Assembly (NCBI RefSeq): GCF_025245835.1
Contig: NZ_JAOBWS010000003.1
Coordinates: 1-64,000 of the forward strand
From: Rheinheimera sp. 4Y26
Lineage (GTDB): Bacteria; Pseudomonadota; Gammaproteobacteria; Enterobacterales; Alteromonadaceae
Length of the DNA: 64,000 nt
Direction of reading: 5' to 3'
Within the stretch, counting starts at the first letter, position 1, and each line of letters starts with the position of its first letter. A program made the translations under genes and the position numbers. The notes under the pieces were generated by a model. It was not told the origin of the DNA. It made no database searches and worked only from the letters and a program-made list of their open reading frames with translations. Below, piece after piece: positions 9,869 through 53,482 of this stretch.

Positions 9869-11080
9869 ATGGCAAAACCGAAGATCCTTTATCTGTGCCA
9901 CCGCATTCCTTATCCGCCGAATAAAGGCGATAAGATCCGTTCTTTTAATGTGCTTAAAGCTCTGGCGGAACACTTTGAGGTGTATCTGGGGTGTTTTGTC
10001 GATGACGAATACGACTGGCAATATCAGGACAGGTTAACAACCTGGTGCACTGAATATAAATGCCTGCCACAACATAAAACGCTTGCCAAGCTGAAAGGTT
10101 TAACCTCATTTTTAACCAGCAAGGCAATTACCGAACCCTATTATTTTGATGCCAGAATGCAACTTTGGGTTGATGAAACTATTAAAAAGCATCAAATAAC
10201 AAAGGTATTTATTTTCTCATCGGCAATGGCGCAATTTGTTGATAAACCAGAATATAGCCATTTGCATCGGGTGATCGATTTTGTGGATGTGGATTCGGAT
10301 AAATGGCGACAGTATGCACAAGCACATCAGGGACTGATGAAATGGGTGTATCAGCGTGAACATCACAAGCTGCAACAGGCCGAACAAAAATACTGTGAAC
10401 GCTTTAACCACAGTGTGTTTGTATCCCCGGATGAAGCGGCGTTATTCCGCTCTTTGATGCCGTCCGCTTGCAGTGACAAAATTACCCATCTGCTGAATGG
10501 TGTTGATGTTGATTTTTTTGCACCTGAACAGGCAGCTACAGTCACAGCAACCGAAGTTCCGTTAAACAGACGTTACCTGGTATTTACCGGCGCGATGGAC
10601 TATTGGGCAAATGTGGATGCTGTGCGCTGGTTTGCCGATGAAGTCTGGCCTGCGTTAGTTGAGGCACAGCCGGACTTGCATTTTATTATTGCCGGCGGTA
10701 ATCCTACTGCAGAAGTAAAAGCATTAGCACTAAAACACAATATTGTTGTGACAGGGCGGGTCAAAGATGTCCGGCCTTATATTCAGCATGCGCTGTTTGT
10801 GGTGGCTCCGCTTCGCATCGCCCGTGGTATTCAAAACAAAGTGCTTGAAGCCATGTCGCTGAATAAAGCAGTGGTAGCAACAGACATGGCGATGGAAGGC
10901 ATTAACGCACCACAATCGCCCTGGCTGCGTCAGACAGACAGTGCAGAAACCTTTATCTGTTACTGTATGGATTTATTACAAAATCCGGTTGATGACATAG
11001 GGGCAAGGCAATGGGTTATCGAAAACTTTACCTGGCAAGCCACATTGGCACCATTGCAACAGCTGGTTACTGAAGCATGA
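9869..11080 (+). CDS. XrtA system GT4 glycosyltransferase (stp1 type)
   Basis: A 403-residue GT-B fold enzyme. The N-terminus ILYLCHRIPYPPNKGDKIRSFN is diagnostic for the PEP-CTERM glycosyltransferase family TIGR03087 (from memory). The C-terminal donor-binding half contains VAPLRIARGIQNKVLEAM, the region where retaining GT4 enzymes place the E-x7-E motif. It adds one sugar of the repeating unit, of unknown identity. Its stop overlaps the xrtA start by 4 bp (ATGA), so the two are translationally coupled. Confidence 0.92.
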   Translation: MAKPKILYLCHRIPYPPNKGDKIRSFNVLKALAEHFEVYLGCFVDDEYDWQYQDRLTTWCTEYKCLPQHKTLAKLKGLTSFLTSKAITEPYYFDARMQLWVDETIKKHQITKVFIFSSAMAQFVDKPEYSHLHRVIDFVDVDSDKWRQYAQAHQGLMKWVYQREHHKLQQAEQKYCERFNHSVFVSPDEAALFRSLMPSACSDKITHLLNGVDVDFFAPEQAATVTATEVPLNRRYLVFTGAMDYWANVDAVRWFADEVWPALVEAQPDLHFIIAGGNPTAEVKALALKHNIVVTGRVKDVRPYIQHALFVVAPLRIARGIQNKVLEAMSLNKAVVATDMAMEGINAPQSPWLRQTDSAETFICYCMDLLQNPVDDIGARQWVIENFTWQATLAPLQQLVTEA

Positions 11081-38246: not shown

Positions 38247-39485
38247 TTAAAGCAGTATTTCCGCCACTGCCGGGTGTCCAAGAAAATCCTGAGGACTGGC
38301 CGTTGCGCCATAAGCGCCAGACTGATACACCACCACCCAGTCGCCTACTTCGGCTTTGGGCAGCTCCATTCTGTCAGCCAGAATATCCAGCGGTGTACAA
38401 AGCGGGCCAACCACTGTGACCTGCTCGGTGTCCTGTTGCCCCATCCGGTTGGCGATGGCCACCGGATAGTTTTTGCGGATAACCTGACCAAAATTGCCGG
38501 AGTTGGATAAATGATGATGCAGACCACCGTTACACACCAGATAAGTGGTGCCACGCGACTGTTTTTTATCCAGCACTTTACAGGCATATAATCCTGCTTC
38601 AGCCACCAGAAAACGGCCAAGCTCAATCACCAGTTCAATACCGTCCAGTTGCTGCTTATATTGTTCAGTGAGCGCTGTTAATGAAGCACCAACAGCGGCA
38701 ATATCCAGCCTTTTCTCACCGGCAAAATATGGAATACCTAAACCACCGCCAAGGTTAATCACTTCTGGTTTATAAGGACAAGCCGCAGTGAGTTTGGCAG
38801 CCAGCGCAAAAGTGAGCTGATGGGCTTCAATTAGTGATTCAGCTTTTAAGTTTTGGGAACCACAAAAAATATGAAAACCACGCAGTTTCACCGCATAAGC
38901 GGAAAAATCTGCCAGTAAATCAAAAACCTGCTCTTCATCAATACCAAAAGGTTTGGCGCCACCGGCCATCTTCATACCGGACGATTTCAGCTCAAAAGAT
39001 GGGTTGACTCTAAGCGCCACCTGCGGTGTTTTGCCTGCAGCAAGGCCAAGCGCATGAATACGATTGAGTTCGCCCACAGACTCCACATGCAAAGTCACGC
39101 CAAGTTCGATGGCAGATCGCAGCTCAGCGTCGCCTTTACCCGGGCCCGCAAAGCTGATGTCTTTGGCCGGCATACCGGTTTGAATGGCCAGCAGCATTTC
39201 TTTTTGCGAAGCCACATCAAAACCATCAACCAAGGCACGCAAATGGTTCACCACAGGCCAATAAGGATTGGCTTTCACCGCATAATGTAAATGAATACGT
39301 GACGGCATAAACTGGCGAAACTTATGCACCTGAGCGGTAATCACGTCGCGGTCATAGGCGTAAAACACCTCTTTACCAAGCGCCTGACTGATTTGTGTCA
39401 TGCTCATGCCGCCAAGCAGCAGCTGCTGCCCTTGTACAGCAAATTGGTTCATCACTTCATGTTGGGGCACGGCTGGCGCATTCAC
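38247..39485 (-). CDS. PLP-dependent decarboxylase, exosortase A associated
   Basis: A 412-residue fold-type III (alanine-racemase-like) decarboxylase. The pyridoxal-phosphate lysine is Lys71 in HYAVKANPYW. FHIFCGSQNL, INLGGGLGIPYF and VVGPLCTPLDILAD follow, as in the ornithine/diaminopimelate decarboxylase family. It matches the locus subfamily TIGR03099 (from memory). The substrate is probably an amino acid loaded for the acyl-CoA ligase partner whose stop overlaps this start by 4 bp. Free amine production for polysaccharide or protein modification is inferred. Confidence 0.92.
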   Translation of the reverse strand: MNAPAVPQHEVMNQFAVQGQQLLLGGMSMTQISQALGKEVFYAYDRDVITAQVHKFRQFMPSRIHLHYAVKANPYWPVVNHLRALVDGFDVASQKEMLLAIQTGMPAKDISFAGPGKGDAELRSAIELGVTLHVESVGELNRIHALGLAAGKTPQVALRVNPSFELKSSGMKMAGGAKPFGIDEEQVFDLLADFSAYAVKLRGFHIFCGSQNLKAESLIEAHQLTFALAAKLTAACPYKPEVINLGGGLGIPYFAGEKRLDIAAVGASLTALTEQYKQQLDGIELVIELGRFLVAEAGLYACKVLDKKQSRGTTYLVCNGGLHHHLSNSGNFGQVIRKNYPVAIANRMGQQDTEQVTVVGPLCTPLDILADRMELPKAEVGDWVVVYQSGAYGATASPQDFLGHPAVAEILL

Positions 39486-41083
39486 AGATTTTGTCCTTCA
39501 GAAAAATAATGCTGGTATTCACCAGAGAGTAATTTGCGGTCAATTTTGCCATTGGCATTTTTCGGCAAGCTGTCTTTTTGCAGTAACACTTTGGGCACCA
39601 TAAACGAGGGCAGCGCTTTTTTCAGTTGTAACAACCAGGCATTGGTATCGACCTGCTGCTGATGTTGCATCGCCACCAACACCACAATGGCCTGATCCAG
39701 CTCCGGGTGCGGAATGCCCAGCGCGGCCACATCAACAATGGCCGGGTCCAGCGCATAAACGGCTTCTTCCACTTCAGTGGGGCTGACCCTGTTACCCAGG
39801 GTTTTGATCATTTCATCGCGTCGGCCGACAAAATACAAAAAGCCTTCTTCATCGTATTTCACCGTATCGCCCGACCACACCGCCATTGGCGCCAGCAGCG
39901 CCCCTTTTGGCATAACCGGGTCAAATTTAAAACGTTCCGCAGTTTTTTCCGGTGAGTTCCAATAACCTAAACTCACCAAAGGCCCACGGTGCACCAGCTC
40001 ACCCGGCTCATTCGGGCCACATAAAGAACCGTCTTCCCGTACCACCACAATTTCGGCATTCGGAATAGCTTTGCCCATCGAACCTCTTTTACGGGGTAAA
40101 TCAGCCGGTGGTAAATAAGTGGAACGGAATGCTTCGGTTAAACCGTACATCAGATATGGCGCCGCATTTTTAAAAATACCCTGCAACTGGGTTAGCAATG
40201 CATCAGGCATAGCACCACCGGAGTTGGTGATATAACGCACTGAATCTGCAGAACCTTCTGGCCATTTGGCTTTGGCAAGCTGCGCCCAGAGCGGCGGCAC
40301 AGCGGCAAGGCCCGTCACCTGATGTTGTTCTATCGCCCGCACCACATCCTGCACCAGGAAAAAGTCCAGCAGCACCACAGTGGCACCGGTTAAAAACGCA
40401 GTGGTGATCTGGCTTAAACCATAATCAAAACTCAGTGGCAATAATGCCAGAATCACATCTTCTGGTTTGTTTTCAAGATAGCTGGACACACTTAGCGCCC
40501 CCACTATCATATTGCGGTGCGTTAACACCACCCCTTTGGGTTTACCAGTGCTGCCTGAGGTATACAAAATGGCGGCCATGTCGGCATCTGTGGGCGCCAC
40601 ACGCTCGTTCAGTTCAGCTTGTGCTGCATCATTTTGATGAAAAGCTGCAATATGCAAATGGCCCTGCTGCTGCACAAAATCCGCCGCTACATCCACCAGT
40701 AATACAGTGTGCAGGTCTTCACATAAGGCTAAAGAGTCTGCCAACACCTCAAAACGGTCTTTGCTGGTGACTAAAATCCGTACGTTACAGTCTTGTAAAA
40801 TGTGTTGCACCTGCAATGGCTTCAAAGCTGGATTTACCGGCACAAAAACGCCACCACAGCGTGAAGTGGCAAAAAAGCTGCTGACGGTTTCAAATTGTTT
40901 GGGCAAATAAACCGCAAGGCGCTGGTGCCGGCTCAGGCCAGCCTGAATAAAACGGCCTGCTGCTGCTGCAGTTATTTCTGCAAACTCAGAATAAGTGACT
41001 GATTCTTTTTTAAATTTTAACGCAGTTCGCGCCGGAAACTGCAAAGCGCCTTGAAGCACTATATCATGGAGGTTACTAATCAT
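39482..41083 (-). CDS. Acyl-CoA ligase, exosortase A associated
   Basis: A 533-residue ANL-superfamily AMP-forming ligase. The AMP-binding motif is AILYTSGSTGKPKGV, and YGLTEAFRSTY, SGDTVKYDEEGFLYFVGRRDEMIKT and a C-terminal PKNANGKIDRK supply the other signatures. It fits TIGR03098 (from memory). I choose the Met at 41083, preceded by AGGG, over the upstream Met at 41125 that has no ribosome binding site. With the decarboxylase and the divergent acyl carrier protein it forms an acyl-activation module that could supply a group to the polymer or the PEP-CTERM acceptor. Confidence 0.92.
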   Translation of the reverse strand: MISNLHDIVLQGALQFPARTALKFKKESVTYSEFAEITAAAAGRFIQAGLSRHQRLAVYLPKQFETVSSFFATSRCGGVFVPVNPALKPLQVQHILQDCNVRILVTSKDRFEVLADSLALCEDLHTVLLVDVAADFVQQQGHLHIAAFHQNDAAQAELNERVAPTDADMAAILYTSGSTGKPKGVVLTHRNMIVGALSVSSYLENKPEDVILALLPLSFDYGLSQITTAFLTGATVVLLDFFLVQDVVRAIEQHQVTGLAAVPPLWAQLAKAKWPEGSADSVRYITNSGGAMPDALLTQLQGIFKNAAPYLMYGLTEAFRSTYLPPADLPRKRGSMGKAIPNAEIVVVREDGSLCGPNEPGELVHRGPLVSLGYWNSPEKTAERFKFDPVMPKGALLAPMAVWSGDTVKYDEEGFLYFVGRRDEMIKTLGNRVSPTEVEEAVYALDPAIVDVAALGIPHPELDQAIVVLVAMQHQQQVDTNAWLLQLKKALPSFMVPKVLLQKDSLPKNANGKIDRKLLSGEYQHYFSEGQNL

Positions 41084-41245: not shown

Positions 41246-41482
41246 ATGACACATCAGTTACTTACCGATATTCTCAATTCTGTTTTGCAAATTAATAAAA
41301 ATTATCAGACTGACACCGGCTTATTGGGTGCTATAGCCGAATTTGATTCTATGGCCGTGATTGGTGTGATCACAGCATTGGAAGAACAGTTAGGTATTCA
41401 TGTGGATGATGATGAAATTTCCGCTGAAGTTTTTGAAACTTTTGGCTCACTGTTGGCATTTATTGAAACCAAACAAGCCTGA
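41246..41482 (+). CDS. Acyl carrier protein, XrtA locus
   Basis: A 78-residue acyl carrier protein. The phosphopantetheine site is Ser35 in EFDSMAVIG, followed by the acidic helix region. Ile/Val-rich helices cover the expected length. It is divergent from the acyl-CoA ligase gene and points toward prsT. It should carry the acyl or aminoacyl group made by the ligase. The 162 bp between it and the ligase start contains CCGACAG twice, 14 bp apart (41149-41155 and 41163-41169). Confidence 0.88.
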   Translation: MTHQLLTDILNSVLQINKNYQTDTGLLGAIAEFDSMAVIGVITALEEQLGIHVDDDEISAEVFETFGSLLAFIETKQA

Positions 41483-45149: not shown

Positions 45150-46043
45150 TTAAGCTTGTTTTCTGCGGCTTAAACCTAAGCCCAGTAAACCTAAACCTAA
45201 GATAGCGATTGACGTTGGCTCTGGAACATTAAATGCCAGTGAACCATCGTGCAAAGCACGGGCTAAAGTGAAAGTTTTAGTCAGTGCGTCATAGCCTGTC
45301 ACTGCTGGTAACGCAGCTACGTTTTGGTCAACTAAAAACTGGAAGTTTTGTTGTTGACCAGACAGTGCTAACGTATCGTGGATGTCACGGAATGACTGAT
45401 TGCTACCACCAAACATTGTGTTAAAAATGTCACCTGCAATAACACCATTGATGCTTTGTGCAGAGTTAAAGTTTGTCAGGTAACCGTTCAGGATAGTAGC
45501 GCTTGGAATGTTGCCACCATTGGTTACGTTCATATCAAAGAGACGAGTGAAGCAATTAATGTTATTGCCAATGGCGCACGCCGAGATATTGGTTGTAGCA
45601 TAAAAAGAAATTGTACCGCTTACCCAATTCACGCCACCAAAACCATCAATTACACCAGTCAGGTTATTAAAACCAAAGCTCAACTCCCAACCACTTTTAT
45701 AGCCATTGTTGCTTGGGCCAAAAGCGCCAAACTCCTGAGGCAAGAATGAGCTGATAGAGTTGTTACCATATTGAGCGGCAAAGTTGTTAAAACCTGAGCC
45801 TAACAAACCACCAGATGAAGTAATGACATCACCGGCGTCGATAGTGAGGTTGTTGTTCGAATCGAACACTTTTGACCAAGAGTTATAGTTAAACTGGAGT
45901 TCTTCTAACCAACCTGTAGTGGTTGTTCCATCAACATAGTTTGCATTCCCACCATAATCTGCGCCGATATCGATGTAGATTGGCTGAGCTACCACTGGAG
46001 CTGCTAATAATGCACCTACGAGGGCTAAAGCTTTAAATTTCAT
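45150..46043 (-). CDS. PEP-CTERM sorting-signal protein (candidate XrtA substrate)
   Basis: A 297-residue exported protein with all three parts of an exosortase substrate. It has a signal peptide (cleavage predicted after VVA19). A polar Gly/Asn/Ser/Thr-rich body follows. The C-terminal tag is VPEPTS (PEP at 274-276), a hydrophobic helix ILGLGLLGLGL and the basic end SRRKQA. The body includes DSNNNLTIDAGD at 61-72, a 12-residue EF-hand-like calcium loop with Leu at position 6. Length and composition resemble floc-associated PEP-CTERM proteins, but I cannot assign a specific family. A sigma54 promoter precedes it, and AGGAGAG lies 7 bp before the start. Confidence 0.95.
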   Translation of the reverse strand: MKFKALALVGALLAAPVVAQPIYIDIGADYGGNANYVDGTTTTGWLEELQFNYNSWSKVFDSNNNLTIDAGDVITSSGGLLGSGFNNFAAQYGNNSISSFLPQEFGAFGPSNNGYKSGWELSFGFNNLTGVIDGFGGVNWVSGTISFYATTNISACAIGNNINCFTRLFDMNVTNGGNIPSATILNGYLTNFNSAQSINGVIAGDIFNTMFGGSNQSFRDIHDTLALSGQQQNFQFLVDQNVAALPAVTGYDALTKTFTLARALHDGSLAFNVPEPTSIAILGLGLLGLGLSRRKQA

Positions 46044-46097: not shown

Positions 46098-46114
46098 AAG
46101 CAACATGCATGCCA
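46098..46114 (-). promoter_or_regulatory. Sigma54 (RpoN) promoter of the PEP-CTERM gene
   Basis: The minus-strand sequence TGGCATGCATGTTGCTT has the -24 GG and -12 GC exactly 10 bp apart and matches TGGCACG-N4-TTGCW except for one common substitution. Transcription would start near 46088, giving a leader of about 45 bases. PrsR, encoded at 52088, carries the GAFTGA loop needed to activate sigma54. Confidence 0.85.
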
Positions 46115-46338: not shown

Positions 46339-46378
46339 AAAACAAAAAAGCCAAACTTAGGTTTGGCTTTTTTGTTTT
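46339..46378. terminator. Terminator of the ThiF-like gene
   Basis: Perfect inverted repeat of 18 bp, arms 46339-46356 and 46361-46378, with loop TTAG. The core is AGCCAAAC/GTTTGGCT with A- and T-runs outside. It is downstream of the minus-strand ThiF stop at 46400 and could also stop transcription from the left. Confidence 0.9.
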
Positions 46379-46399: not shown

Positions 46400-47299
46400 T
46401 CAGTTCATTTGCAGAATTTTTTTAAGCCGCCAGAACATGTATTTCTGTAACGGATTATTGTTTCCAAATGGGCGCCAGGTTTTGATCAGCTTGTTGCGGT
46501 AAGCATCAAAATGCAGACCTCTTGGTGCACAAATCACTTCGCCTCTTTTCAGGATAATTTTCAGCACATTAGTGCAAAGCACACCTGCGGCTAAAGAGAT
46601 CCCCATGCAGGTTGACGGAACTTTCTTTTTAAAGAAGTTAACTGAACTACGCTCAACCAGATAATGACGTTGTTGCACTGAAGGTGAAACTCCAATCACA
46701 AAACGCATGATGTTGTCGCTGAAAATCTGTTGTTTTTGCGCTTCGCTTGCATCTGCAGGGGTATCCTGCATGCAAAAATATTCTTCGAAGGTCATTTCAC
46801 CAGGCATAAATACCAGCATCGCCGTTCCCATCCCCATCGGTGCGGCCGTAATACATGGAATGCCTTTTTCGTAACAACGCTGAAAAACCTTTCTTCTTAT
46901 TTCCAGCGCAAAAATATCGAGGCTATCAATGTAAACCGAAACACCGTCTAAAAACTCTTCGATATTAGCTTCGCTGATCCCACTGTTGAAGTTGCGGATC
47001 TGTGCTTCAGGGTTGATGTTGCGCAGCGTTTGTTCCATCACTTCAGCTTTAGGTAAACCTAAGGTCAGCATAGATGCACCAGCCTGGCGGTTAAAATTTG
47101 GCACGTCATAGGTGTCTAAATCAGAAATATTAAAACGGGATATGCCTAGTCGCGCGCACACGATAGCATGATCACCTCCAACGCCACCGAGGCCACCAAT
47201 GGCAACTTTGGTATTACGTAAAATTTGTTGTTCTTCCGCCGTGACCCAGCCGATATTTCTGGAGAAGGCTTCGTTGTAATCAAATTTATATTCTGCCAC
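46400..47299 (-). CDS. ThiF/MoeB/HesA-like (E1-like) adenylyltransferase
   Basis: A 299-residue E1-superfamily protein. GGLGGVGGDHAIVCARLG (GxGGxGG around 36-42) is the ATP-binding Rossmann loop. SDLDTYDVPNFNRQ (Asp60, Asp62, Asn68, Asn70, Arg71) is the classical catalytic set. No CxxC zinc pair is seen. Such enzymes adenylate a C-terminus of a small protein or a carboxylate and may cyclise it (TcdA-like) or form amides. It sits 31 bp after the acyltransferase stop on the same strand, so the two may form one transcript. Its target is not known. Confidence 0.85.
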   Translation of the reverse strand: MAEYKFDYNEAFSRNIGWVTAEEQQILRNTKVAIGGLGGVGGDHAIVCARLGISRFNISDLDTYDVPNFNRQAGASMLTLGLPKAEVMEQTLRNINPEAQIRNFNSGISEANIEEFLDGVSVYIDSLDIFALEIRRKVFQRCYEKGIPCITAAPMGMGTAMLVFMPGEMTFEEYFCMQDTPADASEAQKQQIFSDNIMRFVIGVSPSVQQRHYLVERSSVNFFKKKVPSTCMGISLAAGVLCTNVLKIILKRGEVICAPRGLHFDAYRNKLIKTWRPFGNNNPLQKYMFWRLKKILQMN

Positions 47300-47330
47300 C
47301 AGACCACTCCATTTTGGTTATCCACCACAG

Positions 47331-48191
47331 TTACACTATCGCCAGTACAGCACCAAAATAACCATCTTCAGACCCAGCTTTTTCCGTTTCGGTATGGAAT
47401 AGATCGTACTCTACTGCTTCTAGCAACTTCAGATAACCAGAACTCATTGATTTTTTTAATGTTCTTGAGTCTATGTAATATGGAGCTCTTTGACCATGAA
47501 ATTCTATGGTATCGCCGATTTTTACAAAATTAATACCTACAAAACTTAAGCTACGGGCCAGTCTAGGCTCCATCATCACAAAGGTGTGATATCGTTTTGT
47601 TTTGTAGGACATCGCTGCTGCAGCCATATAAAGGCAAATAGCAATATAAGGGAAACATCTGAGCTCAGTTGCTGAAAATACAGTCTCATCAATTGCACCT
47701 GTTGCAACACCGGCAAATTTATCAATCTGACGTTTACGGAATGCGGCCGGAACTGCCAGACGGGACATTTCACAAATTTCGTTTCTGGCAAAGTTCTTCG
47801 GATGAAGTTTGGGGTCTGTCACTGCGTGCAGACAAAACTTTTCCATCGGCAATAACTGGTCAGCACTTGCCGATGTAATCAGTCTGACTGTACCAGCCAG
47901 CTGATCAGAACTCAGATGGCGGATGAAACAGTGGATAGCTCTGGGATCAAATTCATCGAACTCTTCATATCCCTGGCGCACGTCTTCAAAATGAAGTTCT
48001 TCACAATAGACCTGATGTCTGAGCTTATAAACTTCTCGCCTTAGATCATCAGACTTTGCAATCTGTGGTTTTAAATACATCGAAAAATGCTCGGAAATGG
48101 AGTTTGCTTCATTACTGGCCAGCGAAGAAATTGCCTTTTTAACAATACCACCGATGATTGGCTTATCCACTAAGCTCTTCAGCTGTTTCAT
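47331..48191 (-). CDS. PEP-CTERM/exosortase-associated acyltransferase (LuxI-like)
   Basis: A 286-residue GNAT-fold protein related to N-acyl amino acid synthases and LuxI-type autoinducer synthases. LRREVYKLRHQVYCEELHFE is the N-terminal signature. FIRHLSSDQLAGTVRLI and CEMSRLAVPAAFRKRQ follow. It matches the exosortase-system family TIGR03694 (from memory). GGGGA lies 6 bp before the start. LuxI relatives transfer an acyl chain from acyl-ACP to a small amine; an acyl carrier protein is encoded at 41246. It may therefore make a lipid signal or an acylated intermediate. Confidence 0.88.
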   Translation of the reverse strand: MKQLKSLVDKPIIGGIVKKAISSLASNEANSISEHFSMYLKPQIAKSDDLRREVYKLRHQVYCEELHFEDVRQGYEEFDEFDPRAIHCFIRHLSSDQLAGTVRLITSASADQLLPMEKFCLHAVTDPKLHPKNFARNEICEMSRLAVPAAFRKRQIDKFAGVATGAIDETVFSATELRCFPYIAICLYMAAAAMSYKTKRYHTFVMMEPRLARSLSFVGINFVKIGDTIEFHGQRAPYYIDSRTLKKSMSSGYLKLLEAVEYDLFHTETEKAGSEDGYFGAVLAIV

Positions 48192-48275
48192 AAAATTCCC
48201 CGTTTATAGAAAGCTCAGTTACAACTGTAAATTAACCGAACCTGTTTATACTACAAAACATTCAGACATTATGAT

Positions 48276-49142
48276 TTATCGTACTGCAGTTTCAAAAATA
48301 TAACTCTTCAACTTGATTGGGATCACTGAAAACGCCGTGATATAGCCAATTTCGTACAGCCGCTCTTTTTCTTCACTGGTCATGTCAAACTTCACTGATG
48401 AAATATTGCCGGTATTGATAACAATCGTATTATGCCAATACTGAGCATGCACATACTCACGCGACATTGCATTCATAAAAGTTTGAATCAACATCAGTAC
48501 ATAGGACACCAGCGGCAAAAATCTGCGTTTGGGTACTGGCCTGTGTTCACTCTCACTTTTTAACCGAAAGCAAATGACAGGAACACCATGGTTAGACCAA
48601 TCCTGATGCAATGCATCTTCAGCCAGAATAACCCCATCTGCCATCACATGATTTTCAAACGTCTTGAAAGAAAACAGCAAGGGAATAGACATGGAGTACC
48701 GCACCGCAACCGAAACTTTTAAATCCGGTGTGTTTTTCCTGTTAAACACTACAGGACCGCCACCGTTAATATCTGTTGCCAGAACGTGTAAATCCAGTTT
48801 CATGTCGCTGAAAGTTTGACCTTCCAACTGATTATCTATCCATTGTTCAAAAATGTCACCACTGGAAAGTCCACCTGTACGCAAAAGGTTTAACAATGAG
48901 AAACCTCGAAACTGTTTAAAATCTGTTTCAAGCGCTAACATTTTCATTTCTTTCATTGTCTTACCAGAAGCAAGCAGTGCTGCAACTATGCTGCCACCAG
49001 AAACTCCGACCACATGTTTAAAGTCTAAATTAAGCTCAGCTAAAGCACTTAGAATACCAATGTAGCAGGGTAAACGGGTTCCCCCGCCAGAAAAAATAGG
49101 AACAATCTCTTTTGTTGTGAGGTCTGTGGACAACGACACCAT
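48276..49142 (-). CDS. Patatin-like phospholipase
   Basis: A 288-residue patatin-fold lipase. The oxyanion loop is SGGGTRLPCYIG. The nucleophile is Ser48 in GVSGGS and the catalytic Asp is Asp169 in MADGV. A hydrophobic stretch (ISVLPLVSYVLMLIQTFMNAM-like, about 225-245) may bind membrane. I choose the Met at 49142, preceded by AGAGGAC at 5 bp, over an open frame from 49280 with no family match. No signal peptide is seen, so it is probably cytoplasmic and membrane-associated. It is divergent from the protease/prsKR operon and the third gene of the minus-strand cassette. Confidence 0.88.
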   Translation of the reverse strand: MVSLSTDLTTKEIVPIFSGGGTRLPCYIGILSALAELNLDFKHVVGVSGGSIVAALLASGKTMKEMKMLALETDFKQFRGFSLLNLLRTGGLSSGDIFEQWIDNQLEGQTFSDMKLDLHVLATDINGGGPVVFNRKNTPDLKVSVAVRYSMSIPLLFSFKTFENHVMADGVILAEDALHQDWSNHGVPVICFRLKSESEHRPVPKRRFLPLVSYVLMLIQTFMNAMSREYVHAQYWHNTIVINTGNISSVKFDMTSEEKERLYEIGYITAFSVIPIKLKSYIFETAVR

Positions 49143-49283
49143 GAAGTCCTCTGTTGCAAACGCCGTCTGACAATCTGCATTAGTATGATCGAATTTACTA
49201 AAGTTGCGAATTTCATTTCCAGCCTTGAACACTGCAGTTACACTGTTACAACCTCTGTTTGGCTGAACTGGAAAGGACAAAAC

Positions 49284-50033
49284 ATGATACGGATCATTCT
49301 GTTATTTTTTCTGTTTCTTACTTCGGAAATAACTGCGGCAGAACTAAGCAATCTGATACCTAAAGTGAAACCAGCTGTTGTAGCAATCGCCCTTTATAAC
49401 CCAACCTCAGCCCCCAGGCTTAAGCTTATCGGCAGTGGTTTTGCGGTTGCGCCAGGTAACAGAATAGCGACGAACTTTCATGTGGTTGAAAAATTGCCTG
49501 ACATCAGCAAAAACGAAAGCTACGTCGTGTTATCGGGGCATGGCAGTCAACCACAGATGCATCAGATTAAGCATATACGTTCGAACCGGGAGCACGATCT
49601 GGCTTTACTTGAAATTGCTGCCACTTTGCCTTATCTGAACCTGGCTGACGAAGACGTTATTGCTGAAGGCACTGAAGTAGCGTTTACCGGCTACCCGATA
49701 ACAGCTGTTCTTGGACTCTACCCGGCCACCCACAGGGCAATTATCAGCGCCGTCACGCCTATTGCCATACCAGCAGATCACTCGACTGCACTTAACCCCA
49801 GAACATTACGCCAGTTGCAACAACCCTTTCCGGTCTACCAGCTCGATGGCACTGCTTATCCGGGCAATAGCGGCAGTGCTCTGTACCGGCAATCCGATGG
49901 TAAAGTAGTCGCCGTGATTAATATGGTGTTGGTGAAAGCAAGCCGCGAAGCTGCACTCAGCGATCCCAGTGGCATTACATTTGCCATCCCGGTTAAACAT
50001 TTAAAACAGCTGATGGCGCAGAATGATGACTGA
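49284..50033 (+). CDS. Periplasmic trypsin-like serine protease
   Basis: A 249-residue protease of the S1 trypsin/DegP fold without a PDZ domain. The signal peptide is MIRIILLFFLFLTSEITAA. The catalytic triad is His66 (IATNFHVVEK), Asp105 (REHDLALLEI) and Ser196 (YPGNSGSAL). AAAGGAC is 6 bp before the chosen start; a longer frame from 49185 has no ribosome binding site or family support. The stop overlaps prsK by 11 bp, so protease and sensor are made together. It may process PEP-CTERM proteins or the sensor itself, by inference only. Confidence 0.88.
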   Translation: MIRIILLFFLFLTSEITAAELSNLIPKVKPAVVAIALYNPTSAPRLKLIGSGFAVAPGNRIATNFHVVEKLPDISKNESYVVLSGHGSQPQMHQIKHIRSNREHDLALLEIAATLPYLNLADEDVIAEGTEVAFTGYPITAVLGLYPATHRAIISAVTPIAIPADHSTALNPRTLRQLQQPFPVYQLDGTAYPGNSGSALYRQSDGKVVAVINMVLVKASREAALSDPSGITFAIPVKHLKQLMAQNDD

Positions 50034-52062
50034 CGTTTTTGTCCCAGTAACGCTTGAATTTGGCCGTTATGGCTTTTGGTTCGCGGGTTTAGGTTACTTG
50101 TTATTCTGGGCATTATTACTCACCGTAAAAACCAATAATGCGCAAAAAATACTACTGAGCATCTATACCCTGGTGTGTATCGGCTGGGCTTATATCAACA
50201 GCCACACAGAAATACTGCCATTTAGTAACCACGCCTCCTTTATCCTGGAAAATCTGCAGAAATATAGTTTGGCGCTATTTTTATTTGCCGCTTTAAGCCG
50301 CTCTGAGCAAAAACTCAGCCAACTGCTATGGCAACCGAAACTGCGTCTTGTGCTGGCGACTTTTGTTATCTGGCTTGTCGCAGGTCTTTTTGTAAGCACG
50401 CAAATGCAGTTATTAGCGGCACTTATTCTGACTGTTGTTCTGTTGGCTATGGTTGAAGCAATATATCGCCAGGCCGGTATTCAGAAATGGCAGTTTAAGC
50501 CGCTGGTGATCGCTGTGGCCGGCAGTGTGTTATTTGATTTTTACCTGCTGGCTGAAGCGGCCTTACTGGGCGAAGTAAACCGTCAAACCTGGCAAGCGCG
50601 TGGGTACGTGCATGTGATGATGCTGCCCTTTCTGGTGGTTGCAGTTAAACGTATCAAGTCGTGGGGTATTAATGTTTATGTGTCTCGCGATATTGTACTG
50701 CAAAGTTCAATGGTATTAGGCGCCGGCATTTACCTGTGCATATTGGCCGTGGTTGGTTATTATCTGAGTTATTTTGGTGGTGACTGGACCACACTGCTGC
50801 AGGTGGTTTTTGTTGTCAGCGGCTGTGTGGTATTGTCAGTTTTATTATTTTCAAACAGCATCAGACGTAAGTCCAAAGTCTTCATTGAAAAGCATTTTTT
50901 TGCCAATACTTTTGACTATCGACTGAAATGGGTAGAATTAAGTCGTCAGTTAAAACAGATTGAAATTGTTGATCAGAATGCGCCACAGGTATGTCTGCAA
51001 GCATGGTGTCAGGCCATTGGGTACAGTCATGGCGCTTTAATTAAATTTACCCAGGATGACGCTCCAATACTGTTAGCCCATACACTTGCGTATCAACCAG
51101 ACTCACAGCTATTGCTATTAATACAGCGCTATCAGCGCGAATTTAGCCATAAATACTGGCTGCTGGATTTTAGCGACACACAAGATGAACATGTAAATAA
51201 GCTGCTGTCAGAAACCGGATTAACTCAGAACAATTCTTTGTTACTGGTTCCTATTCAACAAAAAAGCCGGCTCTGGGGCTGCTGTCTGTTAAAACCTGAA
51301 GTGAATGAAAAACTGAAACTGAACTGGGAACTGCGCGATTATATGAGCGCGGTTTCAGAGCAAATCAGCAGTTATTTATTTATGAGTGAAGCCAGTAAAG
51401 AACTGTCTGAAAATGCTCAATTTGTTGCGTTTAGCCGCATGTCAGCTTTTGTAGTTCATGATTTAAAAAACATTAAAGCTCAGATAGATATGTTGTTGAA
51501 AAATGCTGAGCGGCATCGCCATAATCCTGAATTTATTGACGACGCTTTTACCACCATAGAAGCAATGCAACAACGTCTGCACAATATGTTGTCGCAACTG
51601 ACCAACAAACAAGCCGGCACTGAGCGCTTAGCCCGGGTGAAAGTAGGTGCCATGCTAGGCACCCTGCTCGCACAACGTTGCCAGGCCCACACACCGGTAC
51701 CAACATTACAGATCATACGTGATTGCGAACTGCTGATTGACTCGGAGCGCTTTTCAAACGTGATCTTCCATTTGGTTGATAATGCACAACAGGCAACGCC
51801 GGACCTGGGATCTGTTACCCTGACGCTTGATTGTCATGATCAGTTTATGCAACTGGAAATCTCGGATACCGGCTGTGGCATGAGTGAGGAGTTTATCCGG
51901 GAGCGGCTTTTTAAACCCTTTGATACCACAAAAGGAAACGCCGGTATGGGCATAGGTGCCTACGATGCGCAAAGTTTTATTGTACAAAATGGCGGGCGCT
52001 TAATGGTACAAAGTAAGCTTACGATTGGCTCTACCTTTACCATCCGGCTTCCATTAAACTAA
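50023..52062 (+). CDS. prsK: PEP-CTERM system sensor histidine kinase PrsK
   Basis: A 679-residue sensor kinase. About eight to ten hydrophobic helices occupy residues 12-290. A GAF-like soluble domain lies at about 320-460. The phosphoacceptor is His479 in VVHDLKN, and the HATPase domain has NAQQATPDLGS, DTGCGMSEEF and GNAGMGIGAY. This layout fits the PrsK family TIGR02916 (from memory). It should signal envelope or polymer state to PrsR. It overlaps the protease gene by 11 bp and precedes prsR by 25 bp. Confidence 0.95.
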   Translation: MMTDVFVPVTLEFGRYGFWFAGLGYLLFWALLLTVKTNNAQKILLSIYTLVCIGWAYINSHTEILPFSNHASFILENLQKYSLALFLFAALSRSEQKLSQLLWQPKLRLVLATFVIWLVAGLFVSTQMQLLAALILTVVLLAMVEAIYRQAGIQKWQFKPLVIAVAGSVLFDFYLLAEAALLGEVNRQTWQARGYVHVMMLPFLVVAVKRIKSWGINVYVSRDIVLQSSMVLGAGIYLCILAVVGYYLSYFGGDWTTLLQVVFVVSGCVVLSVLLFSNSIRRKSKVFIEKHFFANTFDYRLKWVELSRQLKQIEIVDQNAPQVCLQAWCQAIGYSHGALIKFTQDDAPILLAHTLAYQPDSQLLLLIQRYQREFSHKYWLLDFSDTQDEHVNKLLSETGLTQNNSLLLVPIQQKSRLWGCCLLKPEVNEKLKLNWELRDYMSAVSEQISSYLFMSEASKELSENAQFVAFSRMSAFVVHDLKNIKAQIDMLLKNAERHRHNPEFIDDAFTTIEAMQQRLHNMLSQLTNKQAGTERLARVKVGAMLGTLLAQRCQAHTPVPTLQIIRDCELLIDSERFSNVIFHLVDNAQQATPDLGSVTLTLDCHDQFMQLEISDTGCGMSEEFIRERLFKPFDTTKGNAGMGIGAYDAQSFIVQNGGRLMVQSKLTIGSTFTIRLPLN

Positions 52063-52087: not shown

Positions 52088-53482
52088 ATGAAAACATTGT
52101 TAGCTATTGATGACGACCTGGGTATTCAAAAACAATTAAAATGGAGTTTAACTGACTACGAAGTTGTATTTGCCGATGACCGTGTATCTGCACTGCAACA
52201 AGTGCGTCGCTACGAACCTGCCGTGGTTACACTGGATTTGGGGTTGCCACCGGATCCAACCAATGCTTCAGAAGGTCTGGCCTGCCTGACTGAAATTCTG
52301 CAGCACAATCCGGATACAAAAGTTATTGTAATTACCGGCAGCACCGATACAGAACATGCGCTACAGGCTGTTGCACTTGGCGCTTACGATTATTATCAAA
52401 AACCTATTGATGTTGATGTTTTAAATATCATTGTTGGCCGTGCATTTCGCCTTGCTGAACTGGAAGCAGAAAACCGGGCACTGAAAGCGGCAAACTACAA
52501 AAGTCAGGATATTATCGGCAACAGTGAAGCCATTCAAAAAGCCTGCCGGATGGTTGAAAAAATTGCACCTACCGAAATTACCACTTTGTTACTAGGTGAA
52601 AGTGGCACCGGCAAAGAAGTGTTTGCCCGTTCTATTCACAAACAAAGCCCCAGAGCTAGCAAACCTTTTGTTGCCATCAACTGTGCTTCAATCCCGGATA
52701 ACCTGCTGGAAAGTGAACTCTTTGGTTATGAAAAAGGCGCTTTTACCGGTGCACACAAAACTACACTAGGCAAAATCGAAACCGCCAATGGCGGCACCTT
52801 GATGCTCGATGAAATTGGCGATATGCCACTTGCACTTCAAGCCAAAATGTTACGCTTTTTACAGGAGCGGGTTATTGAACGTGTAGGCGGGCGCAACGAA
52901 ATTGAAGTTGATGTTCGTGTCATTTGTGCAACACACCGTAATCTGGCGGAAATGGTTGCGGAGCAAAGTTTCCGTGAAGACTTGTTCTACCGTGTCAGTG
53001 AAATCACCTTAAACATCCCGCCACTGCGTAGCAGAGGACAGGACATTATCGTTATTGCAAAATCGCTATTGCAGAAGTTCAATAACGAATTTAATACTAA
53101 TATTCAAGGTTTTACAGAAGATGCCATTAACGCCATGTTAGGCCATCGCTGGCCCGGCAATATTCGTGAATTACAGAATAAATTAAAATCCGCTGTCATT
53201 ATGGCTGACAACAAATTTATCAGTGCTGAAGATCTAGGCTTGCAGGCAGATGTTGATGGCAAATTCGCCCCTTTAACTTTAAGAAAAGTGCGTGAGCAAG
53301 CTGAAACACAGGCTATACGTCATGCCTACAACTTATCCAACGGTAACTTGTCTAAAACTGCTGATTTGCTTGGTGTAACCCGCCCTACTTTGTATGCGCT
53401 GATTGATAAGTACAAGATGCTGGACCTGCGTAGTTCGCTCGGTGATAGTGATACTTCGTTACCAAATACCGAAGAGCTTTGA
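52088..53482 (+). CDS. prsR: PEP-CTERM system sigma54-dependent response regulator PrsR
   Basis: A 464-residue NtrC-type regulator. The receiver domain has the acidic pocket DDD at 8-10 and phospho-acceptor Asp50 in VVTLDLGLPP, with Lys105 near KP. The AAA+ domain has Walker A GESGTGKE at 170-177 and the sigma54-contact loop GAFTGA at 217-222. The C-terminus is a Fis-type helix-turn-helix (LSKTADLLGVTRPTLYALIDKY). It fits TIGR02915 (from memory) and should activate sigma54 promoters such as that at 46098. A terminator-like hairpin follows at 53641. Confidence 0.96.
   Translation: MKTLLAIDDDLGIQKQLKWSLTDYEVVFADDRVSALQQVRRYEPAVVTLDLGLPPDPTNASEGLACLTEILQHNPDTKVIVITGSTDTEHALQAVALGAYDYYQKPIDVDVLNIIVGRAFRLAELEAENRALKAANYKSQDIIGNSEAIQKACRMVEKIAPTEITTLLLGESGTGKEVFARSIHKQSPRASKPFVAINCASIPDNLLESELFGYEKGAFTGAHKTTLGKIETANGGTLMLDEIGDMPLALQAKMLRFLQERVIERVGGRNEIEVDVRVICATHRNLAEMVAEQSFREDLFYRVSEITLNIPPLRSRGQDIIVIAKSLLQKFNNEFNTNIQGFTEDAINAMLGHRWPGNIRELQNKLKSAVIMADNKFISAEDLGLQADVDGKFAPLTLRKVREQAETQAIRHAYNLSNGNLSKTADLLGVTRPTLYALIDKYKMLDLRSSLGDSDTSLPNTEEL

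Follow-up and report, generated by a model that had tools for sequence, protein, structure and literature searches.

The window analysed here is a 64,000-nucleotide stretch of Rheinheimera sp. 4Y26 DNA (contig NZ_JAOBWS010000003.1, positions 1 to 64,000), and our subject is a group of enzyme genes that lies in it between a gene for a PEP-CTERM surface protein and the regulators prsK and prsR. Three enzyme genes follow one another on the minus strand from 49142 to 46400: a patatin, an acyltransferase of family TIGR03694 and a ThiF-like enzyme, separated by 84 bases (patatin/acyltransferase) and 31 bases (acyltransferase/thiF) (Table 1). On the plus strand a protease gene starts 142 bases from the patatin start, with prsK and then prsR downstream. 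An earlier note on this DNA had described a cassette of ThiF, acyltransferase and patatin, with a protease, between the PEP-CTERM gene and prsKR. All four genes were found there with family matches, with two corrections: the enzyme genes and the protease form two divergent units, and a likely terminator separates thiF from the PEP-CTERM gene, which lies beyond it on the same strand. This hairpin was flagged by folding; a consensus terminator scan did not list it. The acyl carrier protein to which the note had pointed is also present. The genome measures 4.08 Mb, and the near-twin of the window locus is L057 from Rheinheimera sp. UBA8519, with a ThiF 99% identical.

Table 1. Features of the locus, with positions in the window and supporting matches.
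Feature	Position	Strand	Evidence or remark
ThiF/E1-like adenylating enzyme (thiF), proposed to cyclise N-acyl amino acids, with no desaturase partner	46400..47299	-	PF00899 E 2.8e-39; NF006077 378.6 bits (cut-off 266)
N-acyl-amino-acid-synthase-like acyltransferase	47331..48191	-	TIGR03694 224.7 bits (cut-off 112); FeeM PF21926 29.2 bits (cut-off 27)
Patatin-family acyl hydrolase, first gene of enzyme operon	48276..49142 (likeliest ATG; open frame reaches 49280)	-	PF01734 E 3.5e-27
Exported trypsin-like protease	49284..50033	+	PF13365; H66, D105, S196 present; 11-base overlap with prsK
PepA-like PEP-CTERM protein	45150..46043	-	PF07589; NF033554 38.6 bits, below cut-off 80
Sigma-54 -24/-12 element upstream of PEP-CTERM gene	46099..46114	-	only exact TGGCAYGNNNNTTGCW match in window
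Hairpin with T-run, likely terminator between thiF and PEP-CTERM gene	46339..46378 (about)	.	fold -22 kcal/mol, z -6.2
prsK, histidine kinase	50023..52062	+	TIGR02916 544 bits
prsR, sigma-54 activator	52088..53482	+	TIGR02915 702 bits
Acyl carrier protein, possible acyl donor	41246..41482	+	PF00550 23.8 bits (cut-off 20.8)
Exosortase-A-associated acyl-CoA ligase, possible acyl activator	39482..41083	-	TIGR03098 708 bits
prsT	41561		presence verified in window
XrtA	open frame at 11077		presence verified in window

The family assignments of the earlier note were upheld for all three enzymes. The acyltransferase scored at twice the TIGR03694 cut-off. A sequence search of the PDB returned only hits at E 0.5 or worse, and its fold was therefore settled by a fold search: the predicted model (predicted local distance difference test, pLDDT, 83) matched LasI, BjaI, RpaI and FeeM (LasI E 6.3e-9; FeeM 2g0b E 3.1e-7; prob 1.00), which gives the modelled protein the LuxI/FeeM fold. 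Residues R58, Y62, D82, R103, E141 and R144 were invariant across 34 acyltransferase sequences and D79 nearly so, which fits the conserved positions of LuxI-type synthases. By analogy with its family, the TIGR03694 protein very probably makes N-acyl amino acids. In the ThiF-like enzyme the adenylation motifs are intact, with N70, R71, Q72, K84, D125 and D128 invariant in 81 ThiF sequences, and no CxxC motif was found. Its PDB relatives include ThiF and TcdA; TcdA cyclises the t6A of tRNA, and the ring it closes is an oxazolone. The patatin showed the motifs GGGTR, GVSGG and ADG, that is, the oxyanion GGGxR, GxSxG and the catalytic Asp, and all 23 relatives compared share S48 and D169 with it. 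None of the NCBIfam patatin models reached its cut-off with this protein, and its relatives of solved structure were weak (best PlpD, E 4e-12).

The PEP-CTERM protein of the window falls below the NF033554 cut-off, and we therefore call it PepA-like. Together with six relatives it gave PepA scores of 37-64 bits, all under the cut-off. Its predicted model was beta-rich (pLDDT 74) and nothing in the PDB matched it at an E value of 0.001 or below, so the attempt to read a function from its fold was dropped.

Co-occurrence was surveyed in 299 genomes of the phylum, our own included. NF006077 ThiF was present in 8 genomes, TIGR03694 in 17 (16 over cut-off), PrsK in 27 and an XrtA-like exosortase in 46 (20 over cut-off). 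TIGR03694 lay within 5 kb of ThiF in seven of the eight ThiF genomes (exception G294). Seven of the eight also carried PrsK, and seven an XrtA-like match (not G115; below cut-off in G276 and G288), in agreement with the tie to the PEP-CTERM system that the earlier note had drawn. Fisher tests for presence in the same genome, which ignore kinship although five of the eight genomes belong to one family, gave p values of 4e-9 for ThiF with TIGR03694 and 2e-7 for ThiF with PrsK. A search of genome contigs returned at least 448 ThiF relatives, of which the best 80 were taken as loci, a sample biased towards the window; 64 of them had 7 kb on both sides of thiF (full-flank loci). Within this distance an acyltransferase was found at 52/64 full-flank loci, directly adjacent at 35, a PrsT-like tetratricopeptide-repeat protein at 48/64 and a patatin at 18/64, and a protein with a PEP-CTERM-like tail (custom pattern) lay near thiF at 51/64. 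ThiF, acyltransferase and a patatin of the same family came together at 17/64. The grouping of these genes exceeds chance. The possibility, raised by the earlier note, that the trio is rarely together elsewhere thus does not hold for acyltransferase and ThiF, and holds in part for the patatin.

The protease was a less faithful companion of PrsK. The earlier note had the two co-translated, and their overlap in the window, like their adjacency in the genus (overlap or within about 15 bases), agrees with this; they are neighbours also in Alkalimonas (L109). However, the full-flank loci carried a protease in 38/64 cases and PrsK in only 3/64, and most protease-bearing loci outside the genus had no prsK nearby. 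Co-translation was therefore rejected as a defining trait, the protease lying on the opposite strand from the enzymes and mostly not near prsK. A DUF218 protein recurs near protease and acyltransferase (L038:5248-6222, L046:7019-7783), with profile matches in 11/80 loci.

A tree of 81 ThiF domains placed the window enzyme in a clade of 29 rows with support of 100/99. We compared 28 loci of this clade with 51 others (L116, poorly placed, was left out), counting ThiF and nitroreductase with domain-limited profiles because fusions of the two occur. A desaturase, fused or nearby, was found at 0/28 window-clade loci versus 29/51 other loci. The desaturase label requires 12 changes on the tree, or no fewer than 8 when counted by starred branches, so that its gain and loss recur outside the window's clade. 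None of the genes scanned near thiF in the window was a desaturase of the nitroreductase superfamily (FDO). A desaturase query that matches the gene of G007 at E 3e-118 had no match at E 0.01 in our own genome, nor any in eight other genomes. G007 belongs to the window's own family and carries patatin, acyltransferase, ThiF and nitroreductase in a row.

Position 237 of ThiF is Ala in 29/29 clade rows and Cys in 29/29 desaturase-associated rows, which makes it a candidate specificity position. In a Bdellovibrionales metagenome-assembled genome (MAG), the neighbour of a window-clade ThiF is a FeeM-type synthase that carries a fused PilZ domain (L075:3610-4851), as has been described for N-acyltyrosine synthases from metagenomes (PMC4897644). 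A Thiobacillus MAG (L066:6237-7175) has an alpha/beta hydrolase before ThiF and a PepA-like PEP-CTERM gene behind it, with no acyltransferase in the fetched flank.

The clade was also distinguished by its surface protein. A full-length homolog of the window PEP-CTERM protein (more than 180 aligned residues at E < 1e-3; the query and the protein of L057 itself are almost the same sequence) was found near ThiF at 21/28 clade loci versus 1/51 others (p 3e-12, uncorrected), and was the next gene in 18 of the 21. These 21 include Thiobacillus loci with no acyltransferase in the fetched flank. Scoring of three PEP-CTERM neighbours from outside the clade gave a true PepA at 200 bits, a THxN protein at 87 bits against a cut-off of 85, and a protein of neither family. 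Profiles built partly from the loci they then counted (in-sample profiles) placed PepA-like proteins at 27/30 window-clade loci and THxN proteins at 6/8 loci where a flavin adenine dinucleotide (FAD)-linked oxidase takes the place of ThiF, with no crossing; L038, whose ThiF is 71% identical to the window's, is not in the tree and was for that reason counted with the other clade in this survey. By the same in-sample profiles the remaining 59 ThiF loci comprised 13 with PepA-like proteins, 8 with THxN proteins and 38 with neither, showing that the pairing is loose outside the window clade and the oxidase group. Independent tests of the pairing are the single-query homolog count and the NCBIfam scores, the latter covering some loci only.

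Within the genus the same pairing appeared as an alternation. TIGR03694 was present in 7 of 22 genomes, with the patatin directly before the acyltransferase in 7/7. The gene after the acyltransferase was ThiF in our own genome (G000), G306 and G316, which are 98-99% alike and in effect one lineage, and an FAD-linked oxidase in G126, G302, G305 and G309 (the last only 33% alike); the two were never both present there. A PepA-like protein stood behind ThiF, and a THxN PEP-CTERM protein behind the oxidase in G126, G302 and G305 (NF038125 137-163 bits, cut-off 85), while G309 had neither behind its oxidase. G314 carried an oxidase and a THxN protein (163 bits) at a contig end, and no acyltransferase was found in this fragmented genome. 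In another family, G138 and G174 had relatives of the oxidase with acyltransferase and THxN protein (264 and 275 bits). The acyltransferase was 54-57% identical between ThiF and oxidase types versus 68-98% within the oxidase type. The corresponding values were 72-74% versus 75-98% for the patatin, 56-66% versus 59-96% for PrsK and 86-94% versus 86-99% for PrsR; the protease was not found in G126. Since the step is larger in the acyltransferase than in patatin, PrsK or PrsR, it looks as if acyltransferase, following gene and surface protein were exchanged as a unit, while the patatin-protease-PrsK-PrsR stretch beside them stayed more constant. Tailoring enzyme and PEP-CTERM protein seem to change together, in few independent exchanges.

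The oxidase that occupies ThiF's place beside TIGR03694 is a family of about 550 residues, with FAD_binding_4 in the one member scanned with Pfam; in two members scanned with NCBIfam no model reached its cut-off. Its loci span two bacterial families (L045:6292-7950, L047:858-2492, L048:6426-8057, L051:6016-7659, L141:10805-12511, L142:7015-8721). The patatin itself occurred in 9/22 genus genomes, the two extra ones being G311 (where a contig end cuts it off) and G308. In G308, a sister species, the patatin ends at residue 208 (L146:9495-10124) and neither acyltransferase nor ThiF was found, as if the patatin decayed after loss of the acyltransferase.

In the window, matches to TGGCAYGNNNNTTGCW with up to 2 mismatches were no more frequent than by chance (27 against a mean of 35), while a looser sigma-54 pattern gave 12 matches against 6.6 expected. 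Across the 80 loci (L057 included), sites with at most 2 mismatches preceded 45/71 PEP-CTERM-like genes versus 23/657 other frames, in agreement with PMC1569441 and PMC9850573. Among the enzyme genes they preceded 1/70 acyltransferase, 0/28 patatin and 0/66 thiF genes, and 0/44 protease genes; the single acyltransferase gene with a site is that of L108. Sigma-54 control of the enzyme operon was rejected as a rule on these counts, and the operon, as far as promoter elements indicate, stands apart from the PrsK-PrsR/sigma-54 regulon of PEP-CTERM genes. All components of the PEP-CTERM/exosortase A system with PrsK-PrsR-PrsT described in PMC1569441 are present in the window, including the sigma-54 site before the PEP-CTERM gene; the window differs in having enzyme genes that as a rule lack such a site. 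The main text of PMC1569441 makes no mention of ThiF, acyltransferase or patatin.

The pairing of acyltransferase and ThiF has counterparts in characterised pathways. In OxzAB, TyzACB and TrzAS the product of an N-acyltransferase, an N-acyl amino acid, is closed to an oxazolone by a ThiF domain that uses ATP, and a nitroreductase-type flavin oxidase desaturates it (PMC10404671, PMC12856293). The earlier note knew of no described pathway that combines such an acyltransferase with an E1 enzyme and a lipase; for acyltransferase and E1-like enzyme, these are such pathways. The window resembles them in having a LuxI/FeeM-fold N-acyltransferase and a ThiF-type cyclase in one cluster, and its ThiF lies within NF006077, where the ThiF-desaturase fusion L098 also scores (402.5 bits). 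It differs in that its clade has no flavin-dependent desaturase at its loci and in its patatin, exosortase linkage and PEP-CTERM protein. The gene set of G007 is the published oxazolone set plus the patatin. ThiF with nitroreductase is found in the gene clusters of bacteria that make thalassotalic acid, kyonggic acid or stieleriacines (PMC12479983); like the window, these have an acyltransferase and ThiF together. A PEP-CTERM gene has been noted in the Stieleria maiorica cluster (PMC7293339), and combining the two papers shows that this gene, Mal15_37300, clusters with ThiF Mal15_37260. These clusters differ from the window in having a nitroreductase, and the word patatin is absent from the main texts of both papers. 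Acyltransferase, ThiF and PEP-CTERM gene are thus already in print together, and the available passages do not discuss them as a set. The literature searched, as far as its accessible text goes, held no report of acyltransferase, ThiF and patatin with PEP-CTERM or of an enzyme/PEP-CTERM-protein pairing, and the match for PEP-CTERM with oxazolone concerns methanobactin. Disruption of such a synthase gene in Methylomonas LW13 is among the mutants not forming the wild-type structure (PMC11072679). The window acyltransferase shares family, fold and PEP-CTERM context with the TIGR03694/NasY synthases of the PEP-CTERM system, as citing papers describe them. N-acyl amino acid synthases were reportedly tied to PEP-CTERM loci by Craig, Cherry and Brady in 2011, with the TIGR03694 family tested.

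The window locus is a variant of the published acyl-oxazolone pathways. The sequences show which genes are there and that they recur, that no desaturase stands nearby, that PEP-CTERM families pair with the enzymes in two groups and that an exchange has taken place in the genus; we infer the chemistry, the role of the patatin and the link between lipid and protein. The earlier note's tie of the cassette to the PEP-CTERM system is borne out, the cassette being real and recurrent, and an acyl-amide is the best reading of its product, as the note had suggested. With a probability of about 0.6, the operon makes a carboxyl-modified N-acyl amino acid, ThiF closing an azlactone without a desaturase, and the lipid probably works with the PEP-CTERM protein. 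The acyltransferase would very likely join a fatty acyl chain, from acyl carrier protein or coenzyme A, to the amino group of an amino acid. The ThiF-like enzyme would then adenylate the carboxylate and close a saturated 2-alkyl-oxazolone (azlactone), like TyzB, TrzS and OxzB but without the flavin desaturase that accompanies them. The patatin might perhaps free the fatty acid for the first step or resolve the product. The tailoring enzyme would be an exchangeable module, sister species placing an FAD-linked oxidase there. Given the apparent joint exchange of this enzyme and the PEP-CTERM protein next to it, lipid and surface protein probably act together in the exosortase/exopolysaccharide system. 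Several points weigh against this scheme. Saturated azlactones are chemically labile, and the pathway may in truth end in an ester, in an amide or in the acid that forms when the ring reopens; N-acyl dehydrotyrosine producers with ThiF genes showed no oxazolone (PMC12479983). Most thiF loci have no patatin, and in G276 and G288 it stands apart from the acyltransferase. At 9/28 window-clade loci no acyltransferase match was found in the fetched flanks (some contigs are short, and L075 has the FeeM-PilZ protein), suggesting that window-type ThiF may sometimes use another substrate.

Since a desaturase is missing from the clade loci and was not found in our own genome, the desaturated oxazolone of the known pathways is not expected here. 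ThiF could activate the N-acyl amino acid as an adenylate and pass it to an amine, alcohol or protein, yielding an N-acyl-aminoacyl conjugate in place of a free oxazolone, with the patatin as a possible transferase. The missing desaturase, the conserved catalytic residues of the patatin and the lack of overlap at position 237 would all fit; we nevertheless consider this unlikely, as the strict-family patatin is missing from 17/28 clade loci and we know of no acceptor. The cassette might conceivably acylate the sorted protein, as the earlier note proposed. That note's other proposal, an acyl-amide signal sensed by PrsK, would give a LuxI-like synthase a histidine kinase of its own and have PrsR and sigma-54 switch on the PEP-CTERM gene in response to a diffusible product. 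The LuxI/FeeM fold of the acyltransferase model, the nearness of the enzyme genes to prsK in the genus, PrsK's presence in seven of eight ThiF genomes and its stimulus, called obscure in PMC1569441, are consistent with it, and a sigma-54 site at the PEP-CTERM gene and as a rule none at the enzymes is what a synthase upstream of the circuit would lead one to expect. However, 14/27 PrsK genomes had no TIGR03694, so that the product cannot be PrsK's general ligand; 4/17 TIGR03694 genomes had no PrsK, and PrsK lay within 7 kb of thiF at only the 3/64 loci mentioned. The proposal is weakened as a general rule, and we hold it to be very improbable. The reading of ThiF as a genuine E1 that serves a ubiquitin-like or sulfur-carrier protein and stands here by chance has the enzyme's superfamily and intact adenylation motifs in its favour; adjacency to an acyltransferase recurs, however, and elsewhere the enzyme is fused or adjacent to a nitroreductase. 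The search for a carrier, confined to the 36-56 kb part of the window, found no frame of 45-130 residues ending in GG, and with the lack of CxxC this led us to reject such a role, whose probability we put close to nil.

The link between N-acyl amino acids and exosortase loci dates from 2011, and to our knowledge no explanation has been offered. One conjecture, which we regard as a long shot, is that each tailored N-acyl amino acid lipid serves one PEP-CTERM family as ligand, carrier or covalent acceptor, with enzyme, acyltransferase and protein exchanged as a unit. If it were true, PepA-like proteins would be served by lipids of this ThiF clade and THxN proteins by those of the FAD oxidase, giving a chemical handle on what the exosortase attaches its substrates to. 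The role of acyl-oxazolones has been called a major unresolved question (PMC12856293). A ThiF clade with no desaturase nearby should show what the cyclase makes alone, and a tailoring enzyme and surface protein that seemingly change together within one genus offer a direct test of the link between lipid and protein.

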